DNA from: an uncultured Lachnospiraceae bacterium | Lineage (GTDB): Bacteria; Bacillota; Clostridia; Lachnospirales; Lachnospiraceae | Assembly (NCBI GenBank): GCA_905236545.1 | Contig: CAJOQO010000124.1 | Location: 1-18,951 of the forward strand | DNA length: 18,951 bases | Direction of reading: 5' to 3' | Shown here: piece after piece, positions 2,290 through 18,951 of the stretch | Position numbering within the stretch: position 1 is the stretch's first letter | How the letters are laid out: every line of letters begins with the position of its first letter | The notes under the pieces: model-generated | Database searches by the model: none | What the model saw: only the letters and a program-made list of their open reading frames with translations | Told to the model about the DNA's origin: nothing | Program-made: the position numbers and the translations under genes

Positions 2290-2315
2290 GGAAGACGGAA
2301 AGGCGGAACCCATAC

Positions 2316-3233
2316 ATGAGTTATATTCTTGAGACCCGGAACCTTACGAAGAAATATGGCTCCAAAGCTGTGGTAAACGAAGTGAATATGCATATCCCTG
2401 AGGGACAGATCTATGGCCTGATCGGCCGGAACGGGGCAGGAAAGACTACGATCATGCGAGTGATCAGCGGTCTCTCATCGCCGTCAGGAGGGGATTACAG
2501 CCTGTTTGGGAAGACCGGGTCTGAAAGGGAGAAGATGCTCAGAGAGGTTGGCGTATTGATCGAGGAGCCCGGATTGTATCCAAGGTACTCTGCGCAGGAG
2601 AATCTGAAGATCAAATGCATCGGTCTTGGGATCGATCCGCGCGTCCAGGTGCCGGCTTTGCTTGAGACAGTAGGTCTTGAAGGCGTTGACCCCAAAAAGC
2701 CTGCAGGATCCTTTTCGCTCGGGATGCGCCAGCGACTGGGCATCGCGCTGGCTCTGGCAGGGAATCCGAAGCTTCTTGTCCTTGATGAGCCGATAAACGG
2801 CCTGGATCCTCAGGGAATCGTGGATGTCCGCGAGATCCTGGTACGGATGAGGGATGAGAAAGGGATAACGATTCTGATCTCGAGCCATATTCTGGAGGAA
2901 CTGGACAAGGTGGCAGACTGCTACGGTGTGATCAATGAAGGCGTGCTGCTGGATGAATTCAGTTCTCAGCAGCTGCACCTGCGCAGCGGGAAATACGTGA
3001 AGATACGCACCTCAGATACGGAAGGCGCTTTGCGCGTACTGGAAGGACTGAATATCAGTGCCGAGCGGATGGAGGAGCAGGACTGCATCCGCGTGGCAGG
3101 AAATACGGACCGTACTTCGGAGATGGCGAGAGCGATCGTCGGCGCAGGACTGGATCTGCAGGAGATCTTTCTGAACACGGTATCACTTGAGGATTATTAT
3201 CTGAAAATGACAGGAGGGGTTCATCATGAGTAA
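2316..3233 (+). CDS. ABC exporter ATP-binding protein
   Basis: A 305-residue ABC ATPase of the multidrug/antimicrobial-peptide exporter type (BcrA/LanF-like). Walker A GRNGAGKT is at residues 37-44, a Q-loop-like region with IEEPGLYP around 82-89, the signature FSLGMRQR at 133-140, and Walker B LLVLDEP at 153-159 followed by a D-loop (NGLDP). After the ATPase core, the C-terminal ~90 residues match the extra domain usual in BcrA-type subunits. An in-frame upstream start at 2241 would lie inside the oxidoreductase gene and add 25 residues absent from the family, so the ATG at 2316 (MSYILETRNLTKKYG) was chosen; its ribosome site (AAGG/CGGA) is only moderate. The stop overlaps the permease start by 8 bases, so the pair is translationally coupled. 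It presumably powers export of a peptide, lipid or drug, with itself or neighbours as beneficiary. Confidence 0.92.
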   Translation: MSYILETRNLTKKYGSKAVVNEVNMHIPEGQIYGLIGRNGAGKTTIMRVISGLSSPSGGDYSLFGKTGSEREKMLREVGVLIEEPGLYPRYSAQENLKIKCIGLGIDPRVQVPALLETVGLEGVDPKKPAGSFSLGMRQRLGIALALAGNPKLLVLDEPINGLDPQGIVDVREILVRMRDEKGITILISSHILEELDKVADCYGVINEGVLLDEFSSQQLHLRSGKYVKIRTSDTEGALRVLEGLNISAERMEEQDCIRVAGNTDRTSEMARAIVGAGLDLQEIFLNTVSLEDYYLKMTGGVHHE

Positions 3234-4002
3234 TCTGATCCGGATGGATCTTCACCGGATGTTTCTGGCACGCAGCTTCAAGGTATGCCTCGTGCTGTCC
3301 TTTCTTTCAGGATTCATCATCGTCCCTGCGGCCAAAGTGTTTATGATGCTGGTCAGGATCCTTCCGGAAAGTGCGGGTATACCGGATCTGCTTCCGAAGA
3401 GCGCGGATCTTTCGTCCCTGCTCCGGGATCCGTTTCCGCTGATGAATGGCATGCTGCTTCTGTTCTCCGCCTGTTATTTTTACCATGCGGATCTTGAGCA
3501 CGGTTATATCAAGAATATAGCCGGCCAGATGCCGAAGAGAGGATATGCCGTTCTGTCCAGATACATCGCGCTGATCGTTCATAATCTGATCTTTGTCCTG
3601 ACCGGTATGGCAGGCAATCTGATCGGAACGGTTCTGTTCATAAAGATTACGCCGGACAGCGAAGCGGTCAGCTCGCTTGGCTATCTGGGGATCCGCCTGC
3701 TTCTGCTTCACGGAATCTGCGCGATCCTGCTTCTTTTTACAACGTCTCTTCGCAGCAAGAATTTCGGCATGGTTCTTGCCGTAATATTCGGCGCGAATAT
3801 GATGAGGGTTCTCTACATGGGGATCGATGCAGGGCTCGGAATCCTTCTGAAAAGGAGCGTTTCGATAGAGAACTACATGCCGGATTATCTGATGTGGCAG
3901 GAAACGCCGGATCCGGTCATCGCACTTCCCGTGGCAGCGGTAACGATTGTTATATTTGTCCTGCTGTCGATCCGGATCTTTGACCGCAGAGACGTAAAAT
4001 GA
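3226..4002 (+). CDS. ABC-2 type exporter permease
   Basis: A 258-residue integral membrane protein with about six hydrophobic segments (roughly residues 18-40, 73-86, 113-138, 152-170, 178-200, 232-252) in the layout of ABC-2 permeases such as BcrB and lantibiotic-immunity subunits. After the second segment, HADLEHGYIKNIAGQMPKR fits the cytoplasmic coupling region found in this group ('GYIKNI...R'). It partners the preceding ATPase: the ATG overlaps that gene's last codons and follows a strong AGGAGGGG site located inside it. Only one permease is present, so a homodimer with two ATPases is expected. No two-component system or bacteriocin gene lies nearby, so self-immunity versus general efflux cannot be decided. 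It ends 7 bases from a convergent gene, with no terminator visible between them. Confidence 0.85.
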   Translation: MSNLIRMDLHRMFLARSFKVCLVLSFLSGFIIVPAAKVFMMLVRILPESAGIPDLLPKSADLSSLLRDPFPLMNGMLLLFSACYFYHADLEHGYIKNIAGQMPKRGYAVLSRYIALIVHNLIFVLTGMAGNLIGTVLFIKITPDSEAVSSLGYLGIRLLLLHGICAILLLFTTSLRSKNFGMVLAVIFGANMMRVLYMGIDAGLGILLKRSVSIENYMPDYLMWQETPDPVIALPVAAVTIVIFVLLSIRIFDRRDVK

Positions 4003-4009
4003 CATCTTC

Positions 4010-5284
4010 TTACTTCTTTTCGTCGAGGATCTCGATGATGTCCTCCACTACATAGTGAAAGGAAGGGAAGGAGGAGTCCGCGTTCTCTGTATATCCTTTG
4101 CTCAGATCGATAATGTCGGCCGGATAGGCCGGATTCACACCGACCAGATCCGCGCGGTAAGCTGCCGCCGGATCTTTTTCTATTTTCCTGATCGCGCTGT
4201 CGATTGCTTTTTGTGTTCCCTTTGCCGCCAGGTTCAGATTCAGATCAAGAATCTCAAGAGAATCATCATTAAACCCGGAACTGACGTCTCCGGTTCCATG
4301 AACGGTTCCCGCAACGGCCGATTCGATCTTTGCATGACTCATGACAGCCTTCACCGCCTGAATGACATAGGGAGCCCAGTTGATCCGAATACTCAGAAGG
4401 GCAGTGGAAGGCGCGATATCCAGGTAGCTTCTGCTGCTTCCGCAGAAGATGAGAGGGTGTTCTTCCGACGCTTCCTCACAGGCGATGGAGGGGCCGATGG
4501 TATCGGAATGCTGTGAGATCACGATGCAGCCTCTGTCGATCAGTTCCGACGCGCAGGCTTTTTCCCTCCTGTAGCTCCCCCAGGTTCCCGTGTACCTGAC
4601 TTTCATCACGGCATCCGGAACGACAGAGCGCACGCCGATCAGGAAGGCGGTATAACCTGAGATGACGGAAGCGGCAGGATAGGCGCCGACGTAGCCGACA
4701 ATTGCCTGATCGGGGGTGATCACTCCGCTGTCGATCATCTCCTGAAGCTTCAGCCCGGCTGCGACGCCGCTTACATAGCGGGCCTGATAGATCTCGCCGT
4801 TAAAGGTGTGATAGTTCTCCGGACGCTGCGCAGGCGGCTGTTCCATATCACTGATCTGGCAGATCTGCACATCCGGGTAGAGAGAAGCCAGCCTGGCGAA
4901 GTTTTCGCTGTGGCAGTTGGTAAAGATAATATCACAGTCCTTCAGCACCAGCTCATGCAGCCGTTCTTCGATCTCATCGTCCGAGACGTTATTTCTCGTC
5001 AGGATCCGGACGCTGTCACGCAGTTCTTCTTCCAGCATGACAGCCGCCCGCGAAAAATTATAGGTATAGGGAGCGCTCTCGTCTCCCTCATACAGAAAGC
5101 CGACAGTGATGGAACTCATCGCGCTTTGAAAGCCCTGCGGCCTGGCCAGTACAAAGATAAGGGCTAAAACAGCGATACAGGTTAGGAAAGTGGTGAGATA
5201 TACACGTCTCATATACTGCCTCATTACGAAACAAGATTCTCTTCTGATACCAGTGCCTTTTACCGAAGGGCACTGGCTGTGCAC
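4010..5284 (-). CDS. BMP-family (basic membrane protein/PnrA-like) binding protein, membrane anchored
   Basis: A 424-residue (from GTG) extracytoplasmic solute-binding protein of the BMP/Med family, whose characterised members (PnrA, Med) bind nucleosides. Matching features are the N-lobe strand ITVGFLYEGD (about 59-68), the hinge region VGYVGAYPAASVISGYTAFLIG, TGTWGSYRREKACASELID, the ISQHSDT loop, and the late GVNPAYP/DIIDLSKGY stretch. The N-terminus has a single hydrophobic helix (about 29-47) without a lipobox cysteine, so it is probably anchored by an uncleaved signal rather than lipidated. The GTG at 5284 lies 11 bases after the sensor's stop, with GAAGG overlapping that stop, which suggests translational coupling; ATG at 5224 (MRQYMRR) is a real alternative. 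No permease or ATPase is adjacent, unlike genuine BMP importers. It is the last gene of a probable operon with the HD-GYP sensor. The ligand is unknown. Confidence 0.85.
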   Translation of the reverse strand: MHSQCPSVKGTGIRRESCFVMRQYMRRVYLTTFLTCIAVLALIFVLARPQGFQSAMSSITVGFLYEGDESAPYTYNFSRAAVMLEEELRDSVRILTRNNVSDDEIEERLHELVLKDCDIIFTNCHSENFARLASLYPDVQICQISDMEQPPAQRPENYHTFNGEIYQARYVSGVAAGLKLQEMIDSGVITPDQAIVGYVGAYPAASVISGYTAFLIGVRSVVPDAVMKVRYTGTWGSYRREKACASELIDRGCIVISQHSDTIGPSIACEEASEEHPLIFCGSSRSYLDIAPSTALLSIRINWAPYVIQAVKAVMSHAKIESAVAGTVHGTGDVSSGFNDDSLEILDLNLNLAAKGTQKAIDSAIRKIEKDPAAAYRADLVGVNPAYPADIIDLSKGYTENADSSFPSFHYVVEDIIEILDEKK

Positions 5285-5295
5285 AGGGTCTGCCT

Positions 5296-8200
5296 TCAGG
5301 AAGTTCCGGTTCCGCCGGCGGAAGGATCCTTTTCCTGCCTGTTCGGATAGAGCTTCTCCAGATCAATCGTGCCTTCCTCAAGGATTCCGAGGAAGATATC
5401 CACGACCTTTGGATCAAACTGTGTGCCGCGTCCCTTCTTCAGTTCATTCAGCACATACCCGATATCCATCTGATTGCGGTAGATCCGGTTGGCAGTCATG
5501 GCATCGAAGGCATCCGCCACACCGATGATCCGGCCATAGAGCGGAATCTCCTCGCCTTTGAGGCCCTGAGGATACCCGCGTCCGTCATAGCGCTCGTGGT
5601 GATACTTCGCGCCTTCTTTCACATGCTCCACCAGCGTGAATCCGGCAAGGATCTCTTCGCCGCGCGTGGTGTGGGACTTCATGATCGCGTATTCCTCGTC
5701 CGTCAGCCGGCTCGGCTTGTTGAGAATATGATCCGGAATCGCAATCTTTCCGATATCGTGAAGGCTGGCGGCTTTTCTCAGATTCTCGCATTCCTTTTTG
5801 GAAAAGCCCATTTTCTGTGCGATCAGAACCGAGTATTTTCCGACGCGCATCGAATGCTGGCTGGTGCGGGCATCCTTGGCGTCCACCGTATTTGCGATTG
5901 CTTCAATCGTCTGATCACCCATCCGGATGCGCAGATTCGCCTGGTCTATGGTATGCCTGAACCAGAAAGTCAGGAGGAAGAAACCGAAGAGCATCGCTCC
6001 GACGACAACGTAGACGATGAACCAGGGTTTGTCATAGATCGCCTCCTGTTTGATGAGCGGATAGGTACGTTCCTCCAGAATCCTGCTTTCATCACGTCCC
6101 AGAACGGCGATGTGGAAAGAATAATCACCGGAGGGGACATTTGTATACGTAATGCCGTTCAGGCTGCTGTGGGGAAGGATCGTCCACTGATCGTCAAAGC
6201 CTTCCAGCCAATAGCCGACATTCGGATCCTGTACCGTGAAATTGATCACCTCAGGGTACAGCTCGATCTTCCGGACGCTGCGGTCGACATGGATGGGAGA
6301 GGAGCTGTCCACCTGGAACGCCTCGCCATCCAGATAGATGGAGGACAGATTCATGCGGTAGATCCGGGTATCATCCGAATAGCTGTCGATATCCAGGATA
6401 CAGACACCGCTGTCACAGGCAAGAAACAGATTTCCCTCTCCGTCATAGTAGTTCCAGGAATTTGCCGTCAGCGCACTCTGAAGTCCCTTTCTGGAATCAA
6501 GAAGATCATAGGACAGATCAGGCTTTCCCGACAGGAGATCTTCGCGGTTCACGACATAGATCCCGGAGCTGCCTGTCACAAACAGCGTATCTTCATCGCG
6601 GATCCAGATATCATAGTTGTTAAAATACGGGAAATTGTCCAGTGTTCTGACCCGATAGGAAGCATCCATATAACACAGGCCGTTGCTGGTGACGATGAAA
6701 ACGCCGTCTCCTTTTCTGTCAAGAATCGTACGGAGAATCACGCCGGAGCTCAGTCCGTCCTCCCGCGTGATAATGCGCGAGATCTTCCGGTCATTTATCA
6801 CCGCGAGACCGTCCCCGTCTGTACCTGCGAGAACCGTGCCGTCATCCATCTCTGATACCGTGAGGATCATGGTATTGACCAGTCCGTCGGCTGAACCGAT
6901 TGTCCGCAGTACCTCATGGTCCCGGATAAAGCTCAGGCCGGTATCGCATGCCGCGGCAATGGTACCGTCTGACAGTTCCGTTGCCAGCCTGGACCGGTTG
7001 CCGAAGCTGCTGTTTTCACTGTTATAGAGAAACAGGTCTCCGTTCGGACACACTTCCCACAGCCCCTGCCCGTAGGTGCAGATCCACAGATGATCCTGAC
7101 TGTCTGTGAAGATACAGCGGATGCGCACATTTGTGAGCTGCGTGGTAAGGGAATTCGTGATCCGGCTGTGCAGGGATGAATCTATGATATCCAGGCCTGT
7201 ATCAGTTCCGATATAATAATCCCCCTGCCACATTCCGGTTGCGTTCACTACCTTATGCTCCAGGCCGACTGCCGTATAGATATCCCGGAAGGCTGAGGGA
7301 GCCAGGCGCAGAAGACCAAGACGGGAAGAAGTAAACCAGAGATTTCCCTGATAGTCCTTCAGAACATTGTCGATCGAGTTATTGAAATCGCTGACGTTAA
7401 TCTCGTGGAAGGTTCCTTCCGCGTCCAGACAGCCGATCCCATGTTCTCCGGTGAGAAAGATCTCACCGTTTTCCATCAGGCGAAGAGAATTGAGGCCGCC
7501 AAGCTCCTCATAGGTAAAGTCCGATACCGGCCGGAAGTATCCCTGTGAGATATCATACCGGTTTATCCGCCCTGAGGAGGTGCCCACACAAAGCGTTCCG
7601 TCCCGGTCGAATTCACAGCAGCTGATGATCTCTTCCCCGCGCGGCAGCTGCATGGAACACAGGATCCGTCCTTTCCGGATCAGGAACAGGCGTCCGTCAG
7701 AGGTGACAGCGGCAATATTCCCGGACAGGTCGGCGGAGATATCATCCGAATAATTGACTTCCCAGAGGGTAGAATACTTTTTCAGCCCGCTGTTGAGCGT
7801 CATGACCTGCATGCTGCCGGTGGTTCCGATATAATAATAACCATCGGCGCTTTCTATGATGCAGCGCACGGAGTCAGACGGAAGACCGCTTTCGGTATTG
7901 ACGACATTGACGATCTTCTCGTTGATCGCGATGGACAGACCGCTGTCGTTGGTTCCGATCCAGAGCCTGTCCTCATCATCGCGGTACAGGCAGTTGACAT
8001 TCCGGACAGAGTCATAACCGTCCATCCATCTGAACTCCTGCCCGTTGTAGCGGTAGAGTCCGGCGTAGGTTCCGATCCACAGTACGCCGTCATTGGTTTC
8101 CGCTATGTCATTGGCCTCTCCGCAGGGAAGCCCGTTCTCGCTGCTGAAGACAGTCTGGACATAATCGTTGTAGTCGAATTCTTTTTCCGCGGAGGCGGCC

Positions 8201-8868
8201 TCTGCCCGTCTGACTGGAGAGAGAATGCCCGCAAGGGAGAGGGTGGCCAGGAGCAGCATACCGGAAACCGTCTGCCGGCGGGACCTGGAAGCAGACCTGG
8301 TGCGGAGGCTGCGGAGTGCGCGGATCGCCAGATGGACAATGAACAGCGTGATCACCTTGTCGAAGAATTCCAGATAGAATTCCCCGAGAATCTTACACAG
8401 CAGGGATGGCCACTTCCAGGCCTGCAGAAACCGGATCACGCCGTCTCCCCAGATATTTCCCGTCATACCTTTGAAAAAGACATAATTGAGGGGAACGGAG
8501 ATAACGGTAGCGGCCACCGCACAGAGAATGCCGGCGAACATGGTGCCGGGAACTGTATCGAGGCTTTTTCTGCGGGCCAGAAAACCAATGAGAAAAGCCA
8601 GCGAGATACTGGTGATCAGGTAAGCCCAGTTCGTATGAAAGAGCATACTGTAGATCAGGTTGCCGGTGACGCCGACCATCATTCCACAGACAGGCCCCAG
8701 GATATAGGCACTGCAGATGGTCCCGAGGGAATCCAGCCACAAAAAGATCTGAATATGAGAGGTCAGTGCGCGTCCTGTACAGTTTGCCAGGATACACACC
8801 AGAACAAGCAGGATGATCTGATAGGTTTTTCTGGTTTTCAAAGCAATACCTTCTCTTTCCAATGCCAT
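5296..8868 (-). CDS. Membrane beta-propeller sensor with HD-GYP c-di-GMP phosphodiesterase output
   Basis: A 1190-residue sensor. Residues 15-185 form about six helices resembling ECF-transporter S components (LDSLGTICSAYILGPVCGMMVG). A second hydrophobic stretch at 201-218 is followed by AEAASA, like an internal signal/anchor. Residues ~230-860 contain about a dozen Reg_prop-type blades (VLWIGTYAG, RLWIGTNDS, NLWFTSSRL, HLWICTYGQ, TVLAGTDGDG), enough for roughly two propellers. A Y_Y_Y domain (NVGYWLEGFDDQW, GDYSFHI) precedes a transmembrane helix at ~950-970, then a cytoplasmic HD-GYP domain with H1037-D1038 (HDIGK) and HHERYDGRGYP from residue 1090. All metal-binding and GYP residues seem intact, so it should hydrolyse c-di-GMP. 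The ATG at 8868 has AGGA 5 bases upstream; the start at 8985 would add 39 unsupported residues. Binding-protein genes flank it on both sides. Confidence 0.9.
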   Translation of the reverse strand: MALEREGIALKTRKTYQIILLVLVCILANCTGRALTSHIQIFLWLDSLGTICSAYILGPVCGMMVGVTGNLIYSMLFHTNWAYLITSISLAFLIGFLARRKSLDTVPGTMFAGILCAVAATVISVPLNYVFFKGMTGNIWGDGVIRFLQAWKWPSLLCKILGEFYLEFFDKVITLFIVHLAIRALRSLRTRSASRSRRQTVSGMLLLATLSLAGILSPVRRAEAASAEKEFDYNDYVQTVFSSENGLPCGEANDIAETNDGVLWIGTYAGLYRYNGQEFRWMDGYDSVRNVNCLYRDDEDRLWIGTNDSGLSIAINEKIVNVVNTESGLPSDSVRCIIESADGYYYIGTTGSMQVMTLNSGLKKYSTLWEVNYSDDISADLSGNIAAVTSDGRLFLIRKGRILCSMQLPRGEEIISCCEFDRDGTLCVGTSSGRINRYDISQGYFRPVSDFTYEELGGLNSLRLMENGEIFLTGEHGIGCLDAEGTFHEINVSDFNNSIDNVLKDYQGNLWFTSSRLGLLRLAPSAFRDIYTAVGLEHKVVNATGMWQGDYYIGTDTGLDIIDSSLHSRITNSLTTQLTNVRIRCIFTDSQDHLWICTYGQGLWEVCPNGDLFLYNSENSSFGNRSRLATELSDGTIAAACDTGLSFIRDHEVLRTIGSADGLVNTMILTVSEMDDGTVLAGTDGDGLAVINDRKISRIITREDGLSSGVILRTILDRKGDGVFIVTSNGLCYMDASYRVRTLDNFPYFNNYDIWIRDEDTLFVTGSSGIYVVNREDLLSGKPDLSYDLLDSRKGLQSALTANSWNYYDGEGNLFLACDSGVCILDIDSYSDDTRIYRMNLSSIYLDGEAFQVDSSSPIHVDRSVRKIELYPEVINFTVQDPNVGYWLEGFDDQWTILPHSSLNGITYTNVPSGDYSFHIAVLGRDESRILEERTYPLIKQEAIYDKPWFIVYVVVGAMLFGFFLLTFWFRHTIDQANLRIRMGDQTIEAIANTVDAKDARTSQHSMRVGKYSVLIAQKMGFSKKECENLRKAASLHDIGKIAIPDHILNKPSRLTDEEYAIMKSHTTRGEEILAGFTLVEHVKEGAKYHHERYDGRGYPQGLKGEEIPLYGRIIGVADAFDAMTANRIYRNQMDIGYVLNELKKGRGTQFDPKVVDIFLGILEEGTIDLEKLYPNRQEKDPSAGGTGTS

Positions 8869-9009
8869 TATGTTCCTGTCGTACGAGCCTGAGGAACAGA
8901 TCCTGAGGAACTGTACAGAGATAACCTGCGCAGACGGTGCACGGTCTGTGGGAAAGGGGCCGTGACAGATAACATGAAATGGCATCGCCTCTGAAATGGC
9001 CTGGCGCAG

Positions 9010-10011
9010 TTACAGTCCGAGCTCGGAGGAGCGTTTGGCGGCTTTTTTGAGCCACTCCTCATACTGACCGGAAGAGACTGCCTCATCGATCACGCCATTC
9101 ACAAAATACATCAGCTCCAGGTCATCTTTCGGACCGGCGACCCGGTCTCCCTGAAACTGTTCTTCAACACCAAACGCCACACCTTCCATCAACACGAGCC
9201 CGCAGTCCGGGTTGTTCCGGAGATACAGCTTCGCGGTTTCCAGATCCACGCCGCCCGCATCCGCCAGACCATTGCTGACTGCGTCATATACATCCCGGAC
9301 GGAAGAAACACGGATGAACTGAAGGTAATCCGGCAGATTCTGCGCCACAAGCAGTTCCTGAAGGGATCCGCTCTGCGCCGCCAGATTCCTGCCGGCCAGA
9401 TCCTCCGGCCCGGCGATCTCCTCCGCGTCACTGCTTCGGATGATCAGGCCGGATGAGGCTTCTTCGGGGGAATAATGGTACCCTTTGGACATCTCCATGG
9501 AGGCCGCGCGGCCCGGCGTGTAGGAGAGGCCGGAGATTGCAAGATCATATTTCCCCGCGGAGATGGATGAGAGGACCTCAGGGAACTCCAGAGGCACAAT
9601 CTCCAGGCCGACGCCCATACGCTGAGCGATAAGGCGGGCGAGCTCCATATCCGCTCCGGCGTACTGATCCTGACCGGAAAGGTCGGGATCGATAAACTCC
9701 TGCGGCGCAAAATATGGCTCCGTTACGACAGTAAGAACGCCTTTATCCCGGATCAGCGACAGCCGTCCGGTGACAGTATCAGGAATCCCGGCCGAGACAT
9801 CCATGGAATCCTCCACATAGTTCCACTCATTCTCGTGGTAGAGGCTTTCCTGGACGGAGCCTGGTGTTCCCATGACAGCGGAAGCATTCTCCTCCGTTTC
9901 CGTCTGCGTTTCCGGCTCCGATGCATACGGAGCGTCTCCGGAAAGAGGAGGACTGACGGAAAAAAGAAGGGATGCCATAAAAACAGAAAGGGAGATTCGT
10001 AACGTTCGCAT
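9010..10011 (-). CDS. Family-3 extracellular solute-binding protein (SBP_bac_3), orphan
   Basis: A 333-residue exported binding protein. An N-terminal signal segment (MRTLRISLSVFMASLLF) lacks a lipobox cysteine; a low-complexity acidic linker (about 27-80) follows. The family-3 fold then begins with VLTVVTEPYFAPQEFID (about 92-108), continues with YAGADMELARLIAQRMG (117-133) and GKYDLAISGLSYTPGRAASMEMSKGYHY, and later LAGRNLAAQSGS. These are the hallmark positions of amino-acid/polar solute binders. An in-frame ATG at 10071 was rejected because ATG 10011 has a clean AAGGA site 6 bases upstream and starts a normal signal peptide. No permease or ATPase gene accompanies it. It is first in a probable operon with the propeller HD-GYP sensor (141 bases downstream) and the BMP protein, suggesting a sensing rather than importing role (inference). 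Confidence 0.87.
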   Translation of the reverse strand: MRTLRISLSVFMASLLFSVSPPLSGDAPYASEPETQTETEENASAVMGTPGSVQESLYHENEWNYVEDSMDVSAGIPDTVTGRLSLIRDKGVLTVVTEPYFAPQEFIDPDLSGQDQYAGADMELARLIAQRMGVGLEIVPLEFPEVLSSISAGKYDLAISGLSYTPGRAASMEMSKGYHYSPEEASSGLIIRSSDAEEIAGPEDLAGRNLAAQSGSLQELLVAQNLPDYLQFIRVSSVRDVYDAVSNGLADAGGVDLETAKLYLRNNPDCGLVLMEGVAFGVEEQFQGDRVAGPKDDLELMYFVNGVIDEAVSSGQYEEWLKKAAKRSSELGL

Positions 10012-10042: not shown

Positions 10043-10071
10043 AATATAACAGTTATACCGTGATTCATCAA
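10043..10071 (-). promoter_or_regulatory. Candidate sigma-A promoter for binding protein/sensor operon
   Basis: Read on the minus strand, TTGATG (10071-10066) is a -35 element and TATATT (10048-10043) a -10 element with a 17-base spacer; TG one base before the -10 makes an extended -10. It lies about 30 bases before the binding-protein start codon, with no competing element as good in the intergenic region. Inference from consensus only. Confidence 0.6.
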
Positions 10072-10177: not shown

Positions 10178-11680
10178 ATGTTGAAAAAGAAAATGACCCT
10201 GTGGATCGCTCTGATTCTGGCGATGCTTTTTGCGGGCATGGCTGTGGCTGAGCAGACAACGGAGGCGGATGCTTCGGAAGCAGAGGCTGCCGAAGAGCAG
10301 GCCTACGAGGACGAGGAGGTATTTCCGGAGTGGAATCCGGAAGCTCCGGCGCTGAACACCCTGATCGACTATGTCGAATCCGTAACGGATGAGAACTCGG
10401 AAGATTTTATCCCTGCTGCGGACAGATATGCCGTATTTGACATGGACGGTACGCTCTATGGCGAACTGTTTCCGACCTATCTGGAATACTATATGCTGGC
10501 ATGGCGTATCCTGAAGGATCCTTCCATTACGCCGGATGCGGAGATGCTGCAGGTGGGACGTACGATCCGTGACTGCGCGCTGGACAAGTCATTTCCGGAG
10601 GACATGCCCATGCAGCACGCAGTACAGGCGGCCCGCGCGTATGCCGGCCTGACACTGGATGAATTCTCCGATTTTGTGACGGAGATCCTGCTTCGGGACG
10701 TGGATGGCTTCGAAGGCATGACCTATGGGGAAGCGTTCTATCAGCCGATGATTGAGGTGGTCGAATATCTGCAGGAAAATGATTTCAAGGTTTATGTCGT
10801 CAGCGGAAGCGATCGGTTTATCTGCCGGACGCTGATCGAGGGTGCGCTGGATGTCCCCTATGAAAACATTATCGGAATGGATGATGCGGTGGTAGCCACC
10901 GGCCAGGGAGACACCGACGGTCTTGATTATGTGTTTACCGCGGAGGATCAGGTGATCCGGAGCGACAAACTCCTGATTAAGAACCTGAAGATGAACAAGG
11001 TCCGCCAGATCGTGCAGGATATCGGACACCAGCCGGTACTGTCCTTCGGAAACAGCAGCGGGGACGTCAGCATGCACAATTACACGATCTTCAACAACAA
11101 GTATAAGAGCGCGGCTTTCATGCTGATCGCGGATGATGAAACCCGTGACTATGGGAATGCAGAGAAGGTTCAGCCGCTGAAGGAAGAGTGGGAGAAGGAC
11201 GGCTTCCATGTGATCTCCATGAGAGATGATTTCCGTACCATTTATGGAGAAAACGTCGTGAAGACCGGAAGCTTCCACTGGATGGAGGAACTGGCGGATG
11301 ACAGAGGCGACGGGGAAGCCCCGGCGGATGGGACAGCAGATGCTTCCGGGGATGAGGCAAAAAATGACGTCCAGTATGTCATGTATGTCGGCACCAATGA
11401 CAAGGACACCAATGAGCCGGTATTCAGCCAGGAGGAATCCAGGGAAAAGGCGGAGGAGATTCTGATTGACCTCTTCGGCGGATATACCATCCAGGAGGCG
11501 GCTGGCGGCTGGAAGTCTGATGACGGTAAAATCGTGCAGGAGTATACGCTTGTGATCTACCTGAGTGATACCGATCTGGATCATGTCCACACCGCGGCGG
11601 ACAGGATGATCGATACGTTCCATCAAAGCTCGATCCTGATTCAGGAGAATCCGACCAGTACAGAGTTCTATACCGGCTGA
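10178..11680 (+). CDS. Secreted HAD-family phosphatase with DUF3574-like C-terminal domain
   Basis: A 500-residue exported protein. The signal peptide MLKKKMTLWIALILAMLFAG ends at a likely AVA/E site (~24-25), followed by an acidic linker. The HAD phosphohydrolase core carries motif I FDMDGTLYG (nucleophile D88, acid/base D90), motif II VYVVSGSD (S209), a Lys-rich stretch KNLKMNK (268-274) and motif IV GNSSGD (291-296). It should therefore dephosphorylate a small substrate outside the membrane. After a disordered acidic linker (~372-397), residues ~398-500 (VMYVGTND, AAGGW, IVQEYTLVIYL, FHQSSILI) resemble DUF3574, a domain of unknown function; this match is from memory. The start was chosen for AAGGAG at 8-base spacing and the signal peptide; an in-frame ATG at 10076 gives a non-signal N-terminus and lies inside the promoter. 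No terminator is visible downstream. Substrate unknown. Confidence 0.87.
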   Translation: MLKKKMTLWIALILAMLFAGMAVAEQTTEADASEAEAAEEQAYEDEEVFPEWNPEAPALNTLIDYVESVTDENSEDFIPAADRYAVFDMDGTLYGELFPTYLEYYMLAWRILKDPSITPDAEMLQVGRTIRDCALDKSFPEDMPMQHAVQAARAYAGLTLDEFSDFVTEILLRDVDGFEGMTYGEAFYQPMIEVVEYLQENDFKVYVVSGSDRFICRTLIEGALDVPYENIIGMDDAVVATGQGDTDGLDYVFTAEDQVIRSDKLLIKNLKMNKVRQIVQDIGHQPVLSFGNSSGDVSMHNYTIFNNKYKSAAFMLIADDETRDYGNAEKVQPLKEEWEKDGFHVISMRDDFRTIYGENVVKTGSFHWMEELADDRGDGEAPADGTADASGDEAKNDVQYVMYVGTNDKDTNEPVFSQEESREKAEEILIDLFGGYTIQEAAGGWKSDDGKIVQEYTLVIYLSDTDLDHVHTAADRMIDTFHQSSILIQENPTSTEFYTG

Positions 11681-12811: not shown

Positions 12812-12856
12812 GTATCTGACAGCGTGATACAAAGGATGAATGGACAGGGATCTTGC

Positions 12857-14275
12857 ATGCAATTATTTGGGAAAATACCGGACAGGTTTTTTAGTATTCT
12901 GGCTTCTTCGAAGAAGGAACTGTACGTTCAGGCATTGTTTGTTCTCAGGCAGGCTTTCCGTACGGAGCTGGTGATCCGGAGAGAAGAACTGACCGCAATG
13001 CTGATGGACAGCCTGGAGACAGACATTCTGGAAGCGGACTTCACCGAGGAAGCCCGGGAAGAGGATGAGCCGGGCTCCTTCGACGGCGGCGGACTGTCCG
13101 CGAAAGCACATCTGCTTGTCCGGAGGCTGAAGGAAACAGGATGGATCGAGACAGAATATGAGAGGGGCACATTTGAAGAGAATGTGACGATCCCTGACTA
13201 TGCCATCAGCGTTATGAATCTTCTGTATGACCTCTCCCAGGAGAAGATCCGTGAATACAACAGCTACGTATACGCGACCTATGCATCCCTTTCCAATGCG
13301 GCGATGAATCCGGATTACCTGTATCAGGCGCTCCAGACGGCCTGGGAAAATACGGTCCGCCTGGTAGATGAACTGAAATCCCTGTTCAATAATATCCGTG
13401 CCTATTACAGAAGAATCCCTGGTGAGGATGATGTGAATGCGCTTCTGGCAGAGCATTTTGATGAGTATAAGGAGAAGATCTTTGATGCCGTTTACTATCC
13501 GCTCAAGACGATCGACTCTGTTCCCCGGTTTAAGCACGCGATCCTGAAGATCATGAATGACTGGCTGTCGGATGACAGCGTCCAGGAGCAGATCGTGCGG
13601 CAGGGCGTTGTCAGGCGTGTATTCGACGATGAGGAAGCCGGCCGTGAAGAGATGCTTAAGATGATCAATTACATTGCAGATACCTATGACGGGATCGAGG
13701 AGATGATCAATGAGATTGACAGGAAGCACGTGGAATACACCAGTGCATCCATCGAACATATACGGTATCTGATGAACGCGGACCGCGGCCTTAAGGGCAG
13801 GCTGATCGAGCTGCTGAAGCATTCCTCTGACGGGAAGATCCTCGCAGAGATGAAGGATCATATCGATGTTTTTCGACATCAATATTATGATGACAGATCC
13901 CTGTATGCGGAGGTCCGGCGGACAAAAAGAAATGTCGGCGCTCCGATGGCACTCCCTGAGACAGCCGGTTCGGATCAGATGGTGCGCAGTTTCCTGAAGG
14001 ATGTACGCAACCAGTTCCCGAACAGCCGGATCGATTCCTATATGGAACGCTGCCTGGCAAAAGACGGACAGGCATCCACGCAGACCGTCCCAATGGGAGG
14101 ATCCGATGACTTCATTCTCTTCATGCTGGGGACTGTCAGAGGAAGGGAGAGGAGCGCGCCGTTTACGGTTGAGTTTGGTGAAAGCTATATCGAAAGGGAT
14201 GGATATCATCTTCCGGCGGTTGTATTCCGCAGGAAAAAGGGAACCGGCACAGCGCTTCATAAACCGGAGCAGTAA
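12857..14275 (+). CDS. jetA: Wadjet defence protein JetA (kleisin-like subunit)
   Basis: A 472-residue cytoplasmic protein recognised as the JetA-family component of Wadjet, an SMC/condensin-like system that restricts plasmids. The opening MQLFGKIPDRFFSILAS and the helical body rich in YNSYVYATYASLSNA-type segments fit clostridial JetA proteins. A winged-helix-like region (AHLLVRRLKETGWIETEYE, about 84-102) follows an acidic insert (about 61-77). JetA acts as the kleisin that bridges the JetC ATPase heads and binds JetB. The start at 12857 has AGGGA 6 bases upstream; the in-frame ATG at 12824 would add 11 unsupported residues. The stop codon abuts the jetB ATG, and jetC and jetD follow, which makes the assignment firm. 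I cannot assign the Wadjet subtype (I, II or III) from sequence reading alone. Confidence 0.88.
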   Translation: MQLFGKIPDRFFSILASSKKELYVQALFVLRQAFRTELVIRREELTAMLMDSLETDILEADFTEEAREEDEPGSFDGGGLSAKAHLLVRRLKETGWIETEYERGTFEENVTIPDYAISVMNLLYDLSQEKIREYNSYVYATYASLSNAAMNPDYLYQALQTAWENTVRLVDELKSLFNNIRAYYRRIPGEDDVNALLAEHFDEYKEKIFDAVYYPLKTIDSVPRFKHAILKIMNDWLSDDSVQEQIVRQGVVRRVFDDEEAGREEMLKMINYIADTYDGIEEMINEIDRKHVEYTSASIEHIRYLMNADRGLKGRLIELLKHSSDGKILAEMKDHIDVFRHQYYDDRSLYAEVRRTKRNVGAPMALPETAGSDQMVRSFLKDVRNQFPNSRIDSYMERCLAKDGQASTQTVPMGGSDDFILFMLGTVRGRERSAPFTVEFGESYIERDGYHLPAVVFRRKKGTGTALHKPEQ

Positions 14276-14986
14276 ATGCAGGCTGTCGAAGGGATGCCGG
14301 TGATGGCAGATTCAGAACGGAGAAAGAACGGGATGCTGCAGGAATATGACAGATTTAGTCTTACGGATAAGGAAAACTTTGCGAGGATAGTGAATCTGCT
14401 GCTCTCGCACACCTTTTTGCTGGTGGAGGAGTATGATTTCAGGGAAGGTATAACCAGGGTCAATAAGGACTATTTGTTTGTGGAACGTAACTATGAGCTT
14501 TTCCGGCAGTATTTCGAGATGGCCGGTTTTGGCTTATCCAGGGACTCTCACTACGGCGTGATCAGCCTGAGCAGCAGGTTTGACGGGACGAGGGTCCGCC
14601 TGGATAAACTGTCGACGATCATGGTTTACGCGCTTCGGCTGATCTACGAGGAAGGGCGCGAGAATCTGACACTGACAAAGGAAGTGATTCTGACAACGGG
14701 CGATCTGGTGCATAAGCTGATCAACCTCGGGGCGGTGAAAAAGAAACCGTCCAATCAGGCCCTGCATCAGGCGCTGCGATCCCTGGCCCAGTTCCGTATT
14801 GTAAATAAGTTTGAGGGGGCATGGGAAGATGCCGCAACGAAACTGATGATTCACCCGTCGATCCTTTTCGTGGTCTCTTCCGAACAGATCTCGAACATGA
14901 GCAGGCTGATCGAACCGGATGGAGACGCTTCCTCCGGCGATGAGGCGGATACGGAAGAGGATGAGTATATCGATGGTGATGAATAA
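14276..14986 (+). CDS. jetB: Wadjet defence protein JetB (KITE-like, DUF4194-type)
   Basis: A 236-residue protein matching JetB/MukE-like accessory subunits: tandem winged-helix architecture with NYELFRQYFEMAGFGLSRDSHYGVISL in the first half, then RLDKLSTIMVYALRLIYEEGRE and LRSLAQFRIVNKFEGAWED in the second. JetB dimers bind the JetA kleisin and regulate the JetC motor and DNA engagement. The final 24 residues form a strongly acidic tail (13 Asp/Glu), likely disordered. The ATG immediately follows the jetA TAA, with GGAG 6 bases upstream inside jetA, so the two are coupled; ATG at 14303 is a possible internal alternative. It is followed by an 84-base gap before jetC, the only sizeable gap inside the operon. 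Confidence 0.88.
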   Translation: MQAVEGMPVMADSERRKNGMLQEYDRFSLTDKENFARIVNLLLSHTFLLVEEYDFREGITRVNKDYLFVERNYELFRQYFEMAGFGLSRDSHYGVISLSSRFDGTRVRLDKLSTIMVYALRLIYEEGRENLTLTKEVILTTGDLVHKLINLGAVKKKPSNQALHQALRSLAQFRIVNKFEGAWEDAATKLMIHPSILFVVSSEQISNMSRLIEPDGDASSGDEADTEEDEYIDGDE

Positions 14987-15070
14987 GAGCAAAGCCTTTT
15001 CCTGCATGGCAGTGATAAGATTCCGGAACAGAGGCGTGAAGAAGGATGGAAGAGGCGGAGGTGAGCGGAT

Positions 15071-18000
15071 ATGAAGAAACTGAACAGGCTTCTTCTGATA
15101 AACTGGTATACTTATGTAAAAGAAGTGATTGGTTTCGAAGGGATCAATTTTCTTACGGGGAAGACTGCTGCAGGAAAATCGACGGTTATCGATGCATTGC
15201 AGCTGATCGTTCTCGGCGACACCACAGGGAGCTTCTTTAACAAGGCAGCCAATGCCGGCGCAGACCGCTCGCTGAGAGGCTATCTGTATGGAGAAAACGG
15301 AGATGACGGAAGCACCGGATTCCGGTATCTGAGAACGCAGACCTTTACGAGCTATGTTGTTGGCGAGTATCTGGATACAGAGAGAAACACAATGTTCCTG
15401 ACAGGGATCGTGTGCGACTGCTATCCGGATCTGCATTATGATTATAAGTGGTTCATCGCCGACCGTACATCTCTTCCGGAGCAGTGTTTTGTGGAGGATG
15501 AAACGAACGTCCCTTACACGATTCCGCAGCTTCGGAGCTGGCTGAAGCGTCATGTAAAGTCTTATGAGATCATTGACACAAACCGCCGCTATCAGGAACT
15601 GCTGCTGGGCAGATTCGGAACCGTAAAAAGGAAATATCTCACCTTGTTCCGGAAGGCAGTTCCCTTTACTCCGATTACCGATATTGAGAAATTTATCACG
15701 GAGTCGGTCTGCGATGTGAAGAACAAACCGGAGATCGAACAGATGCAGAGCGACATCCGCCAGTACAAGAATCTGGAGGCGGAGGCCGAGCGCGCGCAGG
15801 AGAAGATCGAGGCTCTGAGCGGGATCCGCGAGATCACACGCGAATATGAGGCGGATAAGGAACGCAGGCACCAGCAAAGCTATATTATCCTCCGTGCCCG
15901 GAAGGAGGAGGAGAAGGAAAAGCTGGACGCGGCCAGAGCCAGGGCAGATGAGCTTCGCCGGATTCTGACGGACACGGCACGGACGCTGGAGGAGCAGGAG
16001 AGGATGCTGCAGGCTCTTGAGGAGGAGATCTCAGCGCTGGAGGAGGAATACCATACATCAGACCTGGTGAGAAAGCAGAAGTCCCTTCAGGAGCGGATCG
16101 ATGCCCTTACAAAGGAAATGGCCGGCCTTGTTGTGAATCTGCAGAAAGCGAAGCGGCAGCTGAAAAACTATGGTACCTCATGGCTGGAGCAGATCCGCCG
16201 CCTGGATCGGATCGATTATCCCGTAGAAGAAGAATTCCGCTCGCTTATCAGCGCTCTCGCGGAAGAATCAGTTCCGGTGACGCAGTTTGACTTTCAGAAT
16301 GCGGCCAGGCTTATGGAGGATTTTCATGGAAATCTGGCTGGTTTCGGGTATGAGCTTCGTACCCGGATCGATCAGCTGAAGCAGTCGGCCGGAGAACTGG
16401 AGCTACGGATCGATAACCTGAAAAAAGGAATCAAGCCGTATCCGTCGCAGGTTCTGATGCTGAAAAAACGGATCGAATCAGGCCTGTTTGAAAAGCAGCG
16501 GAAGGCGGTTGAGATCCCGATCTTCGCGGAACTGCTGGAGATCCGTGATCCAAAGTGGCAGAACGCGGTTGAGGGATATCTTGATCGTCAGAAGTTCAAT
16601 CTTCTGGTACCGGAGGCGTACTATGAACAGGCACTCAGGATCTATGATGAGATCCGGAAGGAGGAACAGATCTACGACGCCGGAATCGTCGACCTGAAAA
16701 AACTGCGAAACAGCAGATGCCGTCCTCCTGTGCCGGGATCTCTTGCGGAGGAGATTCAGACGGAGGATGCTTCCGCCCGTCTCTATGCAGACTATCTGCT
16801 GGGGAGTGTGATGAAATGCGGGGATCCTTCCGAACTGAACCGCTTCCGGATCTCCATTACACCCAATGTCATGCTGTATAAAAATTTTGTCGCCCGCAGG
16901 CTGAACCCAGCAAGGTATGCCGATCCGTTCATCGGCAGGCGCTCCATGCAGATACAGATTGCAAACCTGACCAGGCAGCTGGAAAGGGAGAAAAAGGAGC
17001 TGGAACGTCTGCAGGAGGAGAACCGCTATGCGCAGAGCGCGCAGAAAACACAGTTCATGAGTTCTTTTGAAGCAGGCGAACATGTCCGGGCAGTGGAGGA
17101 GGGCAGGAAACTTCCAACACTTGAGGAGGAAACGAACAAAGTCAGAAAGGAACTGGAGGCGCTGGATCTGACATGGCTGAACCGCCTGAAGGATGCAATC
17201 GACAGAAAACGTATCGAGAGAAAGCAGCTTCAGTCAGAGAAGGAAAAGGCCATCGCTGCCCATGCCGGGGCGCAGACAACCCTCGCGGGGCTCGAGGAAG
17301 AAGATCTGCCTGCAAGGGAACGATCGCTGCGTGAGACGGAGGAGAAGATCAGCCAGGAATTCTCTGCGGAATGGGTTGAAACGACCGGTGAGCCCAGATT
17401 CCGGAAGGAGCTGCAGGCGAACGGGCGAAGGCAGCTCTCGCTTCTTGAAAGCTTCACCAGAGCCCGCACGCAGACCGATACGATCATGGAAAACCATCGG
17501 CGGGAGCGGGCAAAAAAGCGGGTTGACTATAATCTTGCCTACCGCATGCCATATGACACGGAACGGGAGGACAATGAGGAATATGACAGGGAGCTTGATA
17601 CCCTGAGCCGGATCCGGCTGCCGGAGTACATGGAACAGATCCGGGACGCGAAGGAAAAGGCCTACAATCAGTTCCGGGATGACTTCATCGCGAAGCTGAA
17701 ATCCAATATCGAATCGGTCCGGGAACAGCTGAATGAACTGAATCATTCTTTGCGCAGCAGCGTATTCGGAACGGACCGGTATCATTTTACCATGAGTCCG
17801 CGGGCCGAGTACCGGAGCTATTATGACATGATCACCGACCCGCTCCTGATGGATACCGGTGGCTGGAATATCGCTTCACAGAGTTTTAATGACAAGTATC
17901 AGAAGGAGATTGACCATCTGTTCCGTGCGCTGATTATCAATGAGACGGATCTGACTGCCGAGAAGCGGGCGGAATATGAGCGCAGCATTAAGAAATACAC

Positions 18001-18433
18001 GGACTACAAGACATACCTTGTGTTTGATCTCATCGTAACCAATGATCAGGGCGAGGAACAGCGTTTGTCGAGAACGCTGTCCAGAAAATCGGGAGGAGAG
18101 ACACAGATTCCGTTCTATATCGCGCTGCTGGCGTCATTTTCCCAGATCTGCAGGATCAGAAGCAAAGGAAAGAACAACACCATCCGTCTGATCATACTGG
18201 ATGAAGCGTTCAGCAAGATGGATGGTGAGAGGATTAAGGAGAGCATCGTATTGCTCCGGAGATTCGGCCTGCAGGCGATCTTCTCCGCCCCGCCGGAAAA
18301 GATCGCTGAGATCGCACCGCTGGCGGATCGCAACATAGCGGTATATAAGGATGGAAAACACTCCTTCACGAGACATTTCGATCCGGCACAGGCGGAGGTT
18401 GTCTCAGAGGAGATAGATGAAATGGAAGAGTAG
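15071..18433 (+). CDS. jetC: Wadjet defence protein JetC (SMC/MukB-like ATPase)
   Basis: A 1120-residue SMC-like motor ATPase that with JetA and JetB extrudes DNA loops and recognises small circular DNA. The N-terminal head holds Walker A GKTAAGKST (30-38). Long coiled coils (about 230-330 and 640-870, rich in E/K/R/L heptads) flank a hinge-like middle domain (about 455-625, including IPIFAELLEIRDPKWQNAVEGYL). The C-terminal head has the signature SRKSGGETQ (1004-1012) and Walker B LIILDEAFSKMD with D1044-E1045, then a switch-like FSAPPEK. This COG4913/MukB-like layout separates it from SbcC (no zinc hook CxxC) and RecN. The start has GGAGGTG 7 bases upstream. The gene stops 7 bases before jetD. 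All ATPase motifs look intact, so the system should be functional. Confidence 0.92.
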   Translation: MKKLNRLLLINWYTYVKEVIGFEGINFLTGKTAAGKSTVIDALQLIVLGDTTGSFFNKAANAGADRSLRGYLYGENGDDGSTGFRYLRTQTFTSYVVGEYLDTERNTMFLTGIVCDCYPDLHYDYKWFIADRTSLPEQCFVEDETNVPYTIPQLRSWLKRHVKSYEIIDTNRRYQELLLGRFGTVKRKYLTLFRKAVPFTPITDIEKFITESVCDVKNKPEIEQMQSDIRQYKNLEAEAERAQEKIEALSGIREITREYEADKERRHQQSYIILRARKEEEKEKLDAARARADELRRILTDTARTLEEQERMLQALEEEISALEEEYHTSDLVRKQKSLQERIDALTKEMAGLVVNLQKAKRQLKNYGTSWLEQIRRLDRIDYPVEEEFRSLISALAEESVPVTQFDFQNAARLMEDFHGNLAGFGYELRTRIDQLKQSAGELELRIDNLKKGIKPYPSQVLMLKKRIESGLFEKQRKAVEIPIFAELLEIRDPKWQNAVEGYLDRQKFNLLVPEAYYEQALRIYDEIRKEEQIYDAGIVDLKKLRNSRCRPPVPGSLAEEIQTEDASARLYADYLLGSVMKCGDPSELNRFRISITPNVMLYKNFVARRLNPARYADPFIGRRSMQIQIANLTRQLEREKKELERLQEENRYAQSAQKTQFMSSFEAGEHVRAVEEGRKLPTLEEETNKVRKELEALDLTWLNRLKDAIDRKRIERKQLQSEKEKAIAAHAGAQTTLAGLEEEDLPARERSLRETEEKISQEFSAEWVETTGEPRFRKELQANGRRQLSLLESFTRARTQTDTIMENHRRERAKKRVDYNLAYRMPYDTEREDNEEYDRELDTLSRIRLPEYMEQIRDAKEKAYNQFRDDFIAKLKSNIESVREQLNELNHSLRSSVFGTDRYHFTMSPRAEYRSYYDMITDPLLMDTGGWNIASQSFNDKYQKEIDHLFRALIINETDLTAEKRAEYERSIKKYTDYKTYLVFDLIVTNDQGEEQRLSRTLSRKSGGETQIPFYIALLASFSQICRIRSKGKNNTIRLIILDEAFSKMDGERIKESIVLLRRFGLQAIFSAPPEKIAEIAPLADRNIAVYKDGKHSFTRHFDPAQAEVVSEEIDEMEE

Positions 18434-18440
18434 CAGCAGT

Positions 18441-18951
18441 ATGAATGATCCTGTTGAAAACAGTGCAGTTGAAAAGCAGATTCTCGGGGAACTTCTTGAC
18501 CGGTATGAGCGGAGCAAGGTCTTCCGGGAACGGAGCCTCGATTCAGGTTCCGTTCCTTCTGGAAAAACGCGGCGGATCCTTCTTCGGATTGATGCGGATG
18601 AGAAGCTTTCCGCGCTTATGGAAGACACGGACAAGCGCAAGGAATTCCTGCGCGCTGCAGAGAATCTGCGTCTGAAGGGCGTGATCGATTATTCCTGGGC
18701 AAGGTACGAGAAGGGCAATCTGATCGATAGAATCTGGCTGCTGACCGAAGAGGAGAGCCTCCGGAAAAGCTATCGGATCACCGGCCGGATCGGGAAACAC
18801 GCGCTGCTTGACCTGCTGGAGAGACAGATCTGCTCCGTTCTGGAGAGCGGTTTGGCACCGCAGACAGAGGAAGGAGCGGAGCCAGGCGATCCCGCAGAAC
18901 CGGAGATGGATGCGAAATCAGGCGTCCGCACAGAACCGGAGATGGATGCGA
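18441..18951 (+). CDS. jetD: Wadjet defence protein JetD, N-terminal part (cut by window end)
   Basis: An open frame from ATG 18441 to the right edge (170 codons) with no stop. It was placed by position, 7 bases after jetC, and by content: an N-terminal arm rich in short helices (ILGELLDRYERSKVFRE, KRKEFLRAAENLRLKGVIDYSW, KGNLIDRIWLL) that fits the JetD arm domain. The expected C-terminal Toprim-like nuclease domain (DUF2220) that cleaves the plasmid lies outside the window and cannot be verified. Residues from about 140 onward are an acidic, Pro/Glu-rich linker with the start of a 12-residue repeat. The ribosome site (GGAAGAG within jetC) is modest, implying coupling to jetC. A competing ATG at 18445 is in a different frame and closes after 76 codons. 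Confidence 0.8.
   Translation, partial: MNDPVENSAVEKQILGELLDRYERSKVFRERSLDSGSVPSGKTRRILLRIDADEKLSALMEDTDKRKEFLRAAENLRLKGVIDYSWARYEKGNLIDRIWLLTEEESLRKSYRITGRIGKHALLDLLERQICSVLESGLAPQTEEGAEPGDPAEPEMDAKSGVRTEPEMDA
18883..18951 (+). repeat. 36-bp in-frame tandem repeat in jetD linker
   Basis: Unit 1 is 18883-18918; unit 2 begins at 18919 and is cut at 18951 after 33 bases. Both start CAGGCG, differ over the next six bases, and are then identical for 21 bases (18895-18915 and 18931-18951). The period is exactly 12 codons, giving repeated EPEMDA-type motifs in the JetD linker without disturbing the frame. More copies may follow beyond the window. Confidence 0.8.

Follow-up and report, generated by a model that had tools for sequence, protein, structure and literature searches.

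To our knowledge, c-di-GMP enzymes whose input is a binding protein have been characterised in very few cases, of which NspS–MbaA is one, and c-di-GMP inputs are little known in the Lachnospiraceae of rumen and gut. Reviews treat the activation of c-di-GMP enzymes by solute-binding proteins (SBPs) as a general mechanism (PMC9602780, accessible portion). For the NspS–MbaA system of Vibrio and Sinorhizobium, the available part of PMC9993111 describes a binding protein, NspS, that has no permease and whose gene overlaps that of its partner, the membrane c-di-GMP enzyme MbaA; in its loaded form, NspS attaches to MbaA and modifies the enzyme's output. According to excerpts of PMC11113362, 10 of the 11 characterised SBP-activated histidine kinases are encoded next to their SBP, but such a position does not guarantee an interaction; AgtS bound neither of two neighbouring SBPs in calorimetry, and adjacency of an SBP gene and a sensor gene is therefore not proof of interaction. 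The available text of PMC11109136 describes 5TMR-LYT/S-component-fold receptors such as BtsS and YpdA, in which an S-fold membrane receptor stands ahead of signalling domains, GGDEF and EAL among them; that text contains no match for HD-GYP, propeller or binding protein.

Here we describe three genes in a window of DNA (the whole stretch that was analysed, 18,951 nucleotides) from an uncultured Lachnospiraceae bacterium. They encode a family-3 solute-binding protein (SBP3), a membrane sensor with an HD-GYP domain, and a BMP-family binding protein (BMP). The module resembles NspS–MbaA, as far as that system is described in the text available, in its permease-less binding protein and its overlapping gene pair with a c-di-GMP enzyme. 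It differs in that MbaA is a GGDEF-EAL protein with a plain periplasmic domain, whereas the module's sensor has HD-GYP only, beta-propellers and an S-component domain; and NspS is PotD-like, whereas the module has a BMP and an SBP3, with BMP placed after the sensor. The sensor shares its extracytoplasmic Reg_prop and Y_Y_Y modules with the HTCS propeller hybrid sensors, but its output is HD-GYP rather than a histidine kinase and binding-protein genes are attached to it. Unlike the 5TMR-LYT receptors, it has propellers and Y_Y_Y between the S-domain and the output. We did not find this gene set described in the open-licence PMC literature, although it may still be published, and PMC4212101 contains no match for binding-protein terms.

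Results

The three genes lie on the minus strand of the window and are transcribed in the order SBP3, sensor, BMP (Table 1). The families given for them in the initial annotation are those that Pfam finds (SBP_bac_3; Reg_prop, Y_Y_Y and HD_5; Bmp), but the gap of 11 bases that it reported between sensor and BMP depended on a start at GTG 5284, which is probably not the BMP start. Because BMP homologues begin with MKRVY, which matches ATG 5212 (with GAGG ahead of it) or ATG 5224, the gap is 83 or 71 bases. The sensor probably starts at TTG 8841, which is preceded by AGAGAAGG. The promoter that had been called good is located correctly, but matches of this kind are no commoner in the sequence than in shuffles of it (3 versus 4.1 expected). 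An Rfam search found no family.

Table 1. Features of the three-gene locus, with positions in the window
Feature	Position	Strand	Evidence or remark
SBP3, family-3 solute-binding protein	9010..10011	−	PF00497 1.4e-21
Sensor	5296..8868	−	Pfam: Reg_prop 4.1e-20, Y_Y_Y 1.7e-08, HD_5 3.7e-42
BMP	4010..5212 (alternative start ATG 5224)	−	PF02608 1.7e-16
Possible promoter upstream of SBP3	10043..10071	−	TTGATG-17-TATATT, 9/12 matches
S-component-fold domain of sensor	8305..8829	−	residues 14-188
Signal-peptide-like segment between S-domain and propellers	8182..8283	−	basic n-region, hydrophobic core, AEA-A site
Extracytoplasmic Reg_prop beta-propellers (approximate limits)	6229..8181	−	PF07494 4.1e-20
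Y_Y_Y domain of sensor	6085..6216	−	PF07495 1.7e-08
Transmembrane helix after Y_Y_Y	5959..6024	−	hydrophobic segment WFIVYVVVGAMLFGFFLLTFWF
HD-GYP domain of sensor	5404..5898	−	HD_5 3.7e-42; catalytic motifs complete

Elsewhere in the window, a Wadjet type I defence operon occupies 12824-18951 on the plus strand (JetA1 2.4e-158, JetB1 8.9e-76, JetC1 E 0, JetD1 2.7e-15), with JetD1 running off the window end. Divergent from SBP3, a plus-strand gene at 10190-11680 encodes a fusion of a HAD hydrolase domain with DUF3574.

Retention of the trio in relatives had been set beforehand as a condition of the proposal. Among the best 80 of 573 relatives, a sample that leans to close kin, BMP lies directly downstream of the sensor at 76 loci, and at the remaining four (L064, L070, L083 and L084) the sequence stops at the sensor. 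The end of the sensor gene and the start of BMP share 4 bases at 57 of the 67 loci of this sample where this is measurable. SBP3 lies directly upstream of the sensor at 28 of the 80, at a distance of 8 to 98 bases from match to match, and is missing from 52, of which 46 have more than 1 kb of sequence upstream. A second, independent sample of 150 family genomes contained 13 others in which a close full-length sensor occurs; BMP adjoins it in 11 of these, is divided by a contig edge in one (G112) and is missing from G009, a 96% complete genome with no BMP match anywhere, and a search of 1.5 kb around the sensor found SBP3 in none of the 13. Outside the host's own genome, the 12 strongest BMP matches in the 150 genomes are all sensor loci, one of them spread over two contigs. 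At 16 loci with other propeller HD-GYP sensors (L019-L034), tblastn gave no BMP or SBP3 match in the 1.5-kb flanks, and a Pfam search of ten flanking proteins gave no BMP or SBP3 and one Peripla_BP_4. The association is thus a property of the clade of sensors to which that of the window belongs.

Based on these counts, we conclude that the three genes form a real, conserved module, kept in many species, in which BMP and SBP3 are probably co-translated or co-transcribed with the sensor. The idea that both binding proteins always belong to it does not hold, since the absences make SBP3 an optional input. Of the proposal that the binding proteins are receptors in a sensor module, the conserved module and its freedom from a transporter stand, while the constancy of SBP3 does not.

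In a FastTree phylogeny of 76 sensors (75 of the 80 loci plus the window, midpoint root), SBP3 presence changes 3 times, versus 22.7 times in shuffles; L043 was left unlabelled because it has no upstream room, and a few SBP3-negative loci with less than 1 kb upstream were labelled. SBP3 is spread through deep branches and is absent from one large Lachnospiraceae clade, and the trio therefore looks old, with SBP3 lost later, a direction that depends on the midpoint root.

BMP scores 60.6 bits against PF02608, above the gathering cut-off of 24.1, and its model has an AtzT-like fold, with AtzT and 3s99 as the nearest structures; AtzT holds guanine and 3s99 a modelled adenine (PMC6834077). BMP is putatively assigned to the purine-nucleobase class, AtzT-like rather than PnrA-like, a point absent from the initial annotation. 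Pocket residues were counted in full-length BMPs from 63 of the 80 loci (best 80 of 573 relatives). The Tyr, Glu and Trp that correspond to AtzT Y45, E165 and W194 are each present in 60 of 63; the positions of AtzT N218 and N220 are His in 57 and Asp in 55, as in 3s99, and that of S97 is mostly Gly (48). The window BMP reads Y, C, S, W, H, D at the positions of Y45, S97, E165, W194, N218 and N220. Because Ser replaces the conserved pocket Glu and Cys stands at the Ser97 position, its ligand may differ from the norm of the trio. In MAGs labelled Chloroflexota, two loci (L095 and L105) carry the trio nested among Bacillota on the tree, which may reflect transfer or mis-binning; their BMP pockets are without the Tyr, Trp and Asp.

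Trio BMPs differ from AtzT and 3s99 in a loop after the Ser97 position that is two residues shorter, in their place beside a sensor, and in an N-terminal anchor helix. This helix spans residues 2-26 of the model, is rarely followed by AxA (5 of 58), and is likely a membrane anchor, to judge from the model. With a lax pattern, a lipobox was found in 8 of 64 trio BMPs and 2 of 21 trio SBP3s versus 15 of 17 transporter-type BMPs. A separate long protein (L220 803-2731), with similar frames of about 640-690 amino acids in many family genomes, has a BMP domain (PF02608 4.4e-20) at residues 302-486 and no second Pfam match.

SBP3 scores 77.1 bits against PF00497, above the cut-off of 26.4, and its best PDB match is the amino-acid binding protein 4i62 (1.5e-29). 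Its Arg168 and Asp256 (numbered from the ATG) align with the Arg and Asp of SBP_bac_3, which we take to hold the amino acid backbone in HisJ/LAO, and with those of PDB amino-acid binders; each of the two columns is conserved at 90% or more across 20 homologues, with the separate lipoprotein SBP of L091 left out. Domain and residues together point to an amino-acid-binding SBP_bac_3 protein. SBP3 appears to be secreted, without a lipobox and with a signal peptide that looks cleavable (13 of 21 have AxA). Family membership suggests that the host is a monoderm, in which a soluble, lipid-free binding protein would be lost unless a partner holds it. Between the signal peptide and the SBP domain, trio SBP3s keep a motif, ENEWNYV...MDxSxGIP, that is a candidate docking strip.

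That SBP3 was found at 28 of 80 loci (best 80 of 573) and in none of the 13 family genomes within 1.5 kb means that the sensor works without it, and would fit a reading in which BMP alone partners the sensor while SBP3, in some lineages, is secreted for a purpose of its own, such as scavenging. We consider this unlikely, given that SBP3, where present, is always directly upstream and is stable on the tree, and that its extra N-terminal motif could serve docking.

As initially reported, neither binding protein has a permease or an ABC ATPase of its own inside the trio. The ABC genes found at 2310-4002 lie on the opposite strand and appear to be an ABC-2-type export-like pair. The suspicion that homologues of the binding proteins always go with permeases was not borne out: within about 1.5 kb of BMPs from the family genomes, a BMP-transporter ATPase stands beside 0 of 12 trio-type and 18 of 18 transporter-type BMPs. 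In the sample of 80 loci (best 80 of 573 relatives), neither permease of the host's own BMP operon has a match, a generic ABC ATPase matches at 19, and a HisM-type permease occurs at three, all lacking SBP3. Apart from the genes of the module itself, the neighbourhood yielded two sizeable clusters. One (29 ORFs, 18 loci) groups Walker-A proteins, almost all of them ABC-like, which lie on either strand at 73 to 8926 bases from the sensor; the other (16 ORFs, 14 loci) is made up of minus-strand frames mostly overlapping or antisense to module genes, and the next-largest reaches 5 loci in this sample.

Orphan SBPs that feed distant permeases exist, and BMP and SBP3 could be such orphan parts, with the sensor merely co-regulated. 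The host's own genome has a complete BMP-ABC operon (L152) whose BMP is 39% identical to that of the trio, with a pocket that matches the trio consensus except at one residue. That operon already has a BMP, however, and trio BMPs stand apart as a top-scoring group of matches that tracks the sensor, are without the usual lipobox, and overlap the sensor gene at 57 of 67 loci (best 80 of 573), all of which makes an uptake role improbable in our judgement.

The sensor begins with a six-helix ECF S-component-like domain that the initial annotation did not have. It matches the NCBIfam model CD3073 ECF_S (NF045596) at 1.5e-20 and 73.5 bits, below the cut-off of 180, as are nine standalone relatives scored with the same model. 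VIA-align recovers the six-helix S-component fold, and it is the source of the fold assignment; a profile of the domain gave 0 matches to PDB sequences up to E 10, and Foldseek gave nothing below E 0.001. A match to 5TMR-LYT (PF07694) is also below cut-off (19.5 versus 24.6 bits). Signature residues of the domain recur in nine standalone S-components, and the likeness to the CD3073 family extends to sequence, fold and signature. EcfT adjoins seven of the nine that share the signature. Among 30 standalone relatives, taken from about 35 short-frame matches, a nucleoside phosphorylase or hydrolase is nearby in 17, versus 1 of 58 control loci; a phosphorylase is near only four of the nine that bear the signature, three of the four from one genus, and the most distant relatives have neither signature nor nucleoside genes.

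The domain differs from CD3073-family S-components in its fusion to a sensor and in helix 1, where two positions are both Ala or Gly in 15 of 16 ECF-linked and 8 of 14 other standalone proteins versus 0 of 74 fused domains. In the range scanned, 7 fused domains out of 74 and none of the 16 ECF-linked S-components have a literal AxxxA, which leaves the motif itself ambiguous. Receptors with the S-component fold have lost the small helix-1 residues (AXXXA), according to the available part of PMC11109136, and the fused pattern fits that loss, although our two positions may not be the AXXXA pair. No EcfT or EcfA partner was found in the window. With neither partners nor small helix-1 residues, the domain is very unlikely to be an ECF transporter subunit; probably it derives from a CD3073-like ECF S-component and is a second, membrane-embedded receptor for the same ligand class. 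A reading in which it continues to dock an ECF module and to import purines, with HD-GYP reading the flux, would accord with the retained fold and with a signature shared by S-components that mostly have EcfT beside them, but the helix-1 difference and the parallel loss in described receptors leave this very improbable.

The S-domain is a reused input module, as seen from shorter proteins (586-728 amino acids) in which it is joined to HD-GYP without propellers: L151 334-2517 (own genome, G000:C22), L162 4593-6353, L165, L168 and L169. At L161 4200-9194, S-domain and propellers stand on a hybrid histidine kinase that adjoins a short protein and an S-domain HD-GYP protein.

The HD-GYP domain is complete, as had been claimed, and the metal-binding His/Asp set is present along with its HD and GYP motifs. 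The window sensor has GRGYP at 5569-5583 and HDIGK at 5746-5760, and GxGYP and HDxGK are each found in 73 of 73 sensors of the related loci (best 80 of 573 relatives); with its motifs intact, it is predicted to be a c-di-GMP phosphodiesterase.

The segment between S-domain and propellers, which the initial annotation also lacked, was compared in 72 sensors (74 taken; L038 and L051 skipped). A strict AxA follows it in 49 and a looser pattern in all 72, versus 4 and 21 for the transmembrane helix after Y_Y_Y; the AxA frequency resembles that of the SBP3 signal peptides (13 of 21). Net charge ahead of the core is positive in 38, zero in 19 and negative in 15, which is mixed evidence for an n-region. 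Since propeller HD-GYP proteins without an S-domain occur in the same family, the segment may descend from the signal peptide that such a protein had before the fusion. A more far-reaching idea, which we put forward tentatively and hold to be rather unlikely, is that the sensor is made as a polyprotein: signal peptidase I would cut after the internal AxA and free the S-domain, as a membrane receptor, from the propeller-HD-GYP part. The S-domain and BMP would read the same purine-type ligand, within the membrane and outside it, SBP3 would read an amino acid, and all three receptors would feed one c-di-GMP phosphodiesterase as a logic module. If so, the cell would couple nitrogen-rich nutrients to lifestyle without import.

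Discussion

We favor, as reasonably probable, the reading that the locus is a self-contained c-di-GMP input module in which a purine-type BMP and, where kept, an amino-acid SBP3 control a sensor with intact HD-GYP motifs. BMP would be tethered to the membrane and bind a purine-type ligand, either a nucleobase or a nucleoside, as its receptor, and SBP3, in lineages that retain it, would be a secreted amino-acid receptor. Loaded BMP or SBP3 would touch the extracytoplasmic propellers, the S-component-fold domain of the sensor, or both, and the resulting change would pass through Y_Y_Y and the last transmembrane helix to HD-GYP, altering c-di-GMP hydrolysis. If NspS–MbaA is a guide, hydrolysis could fall when the loaded protein binds, and the module would work like that system, its closest working parallel, from unrelated parts. 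With 39 GGDEF and 5 HD-GYP matches in its genome, the host is, on sequence grounds, a c-di-GMP user and c-di-GMP-rich.

If this reading is true, the module would combine a binding-protein input and an HD-GYP output with binding proteins of two classes and a receptor of the S-component type. Its hosts are rumen and gut Lachnospiraceae, some of them cultured and others uncultured. As a compact, conserved unit that could be moved to a laboratory host, it would make c-di-GMP sensing in gut Clostridia testable with named ligand classes.
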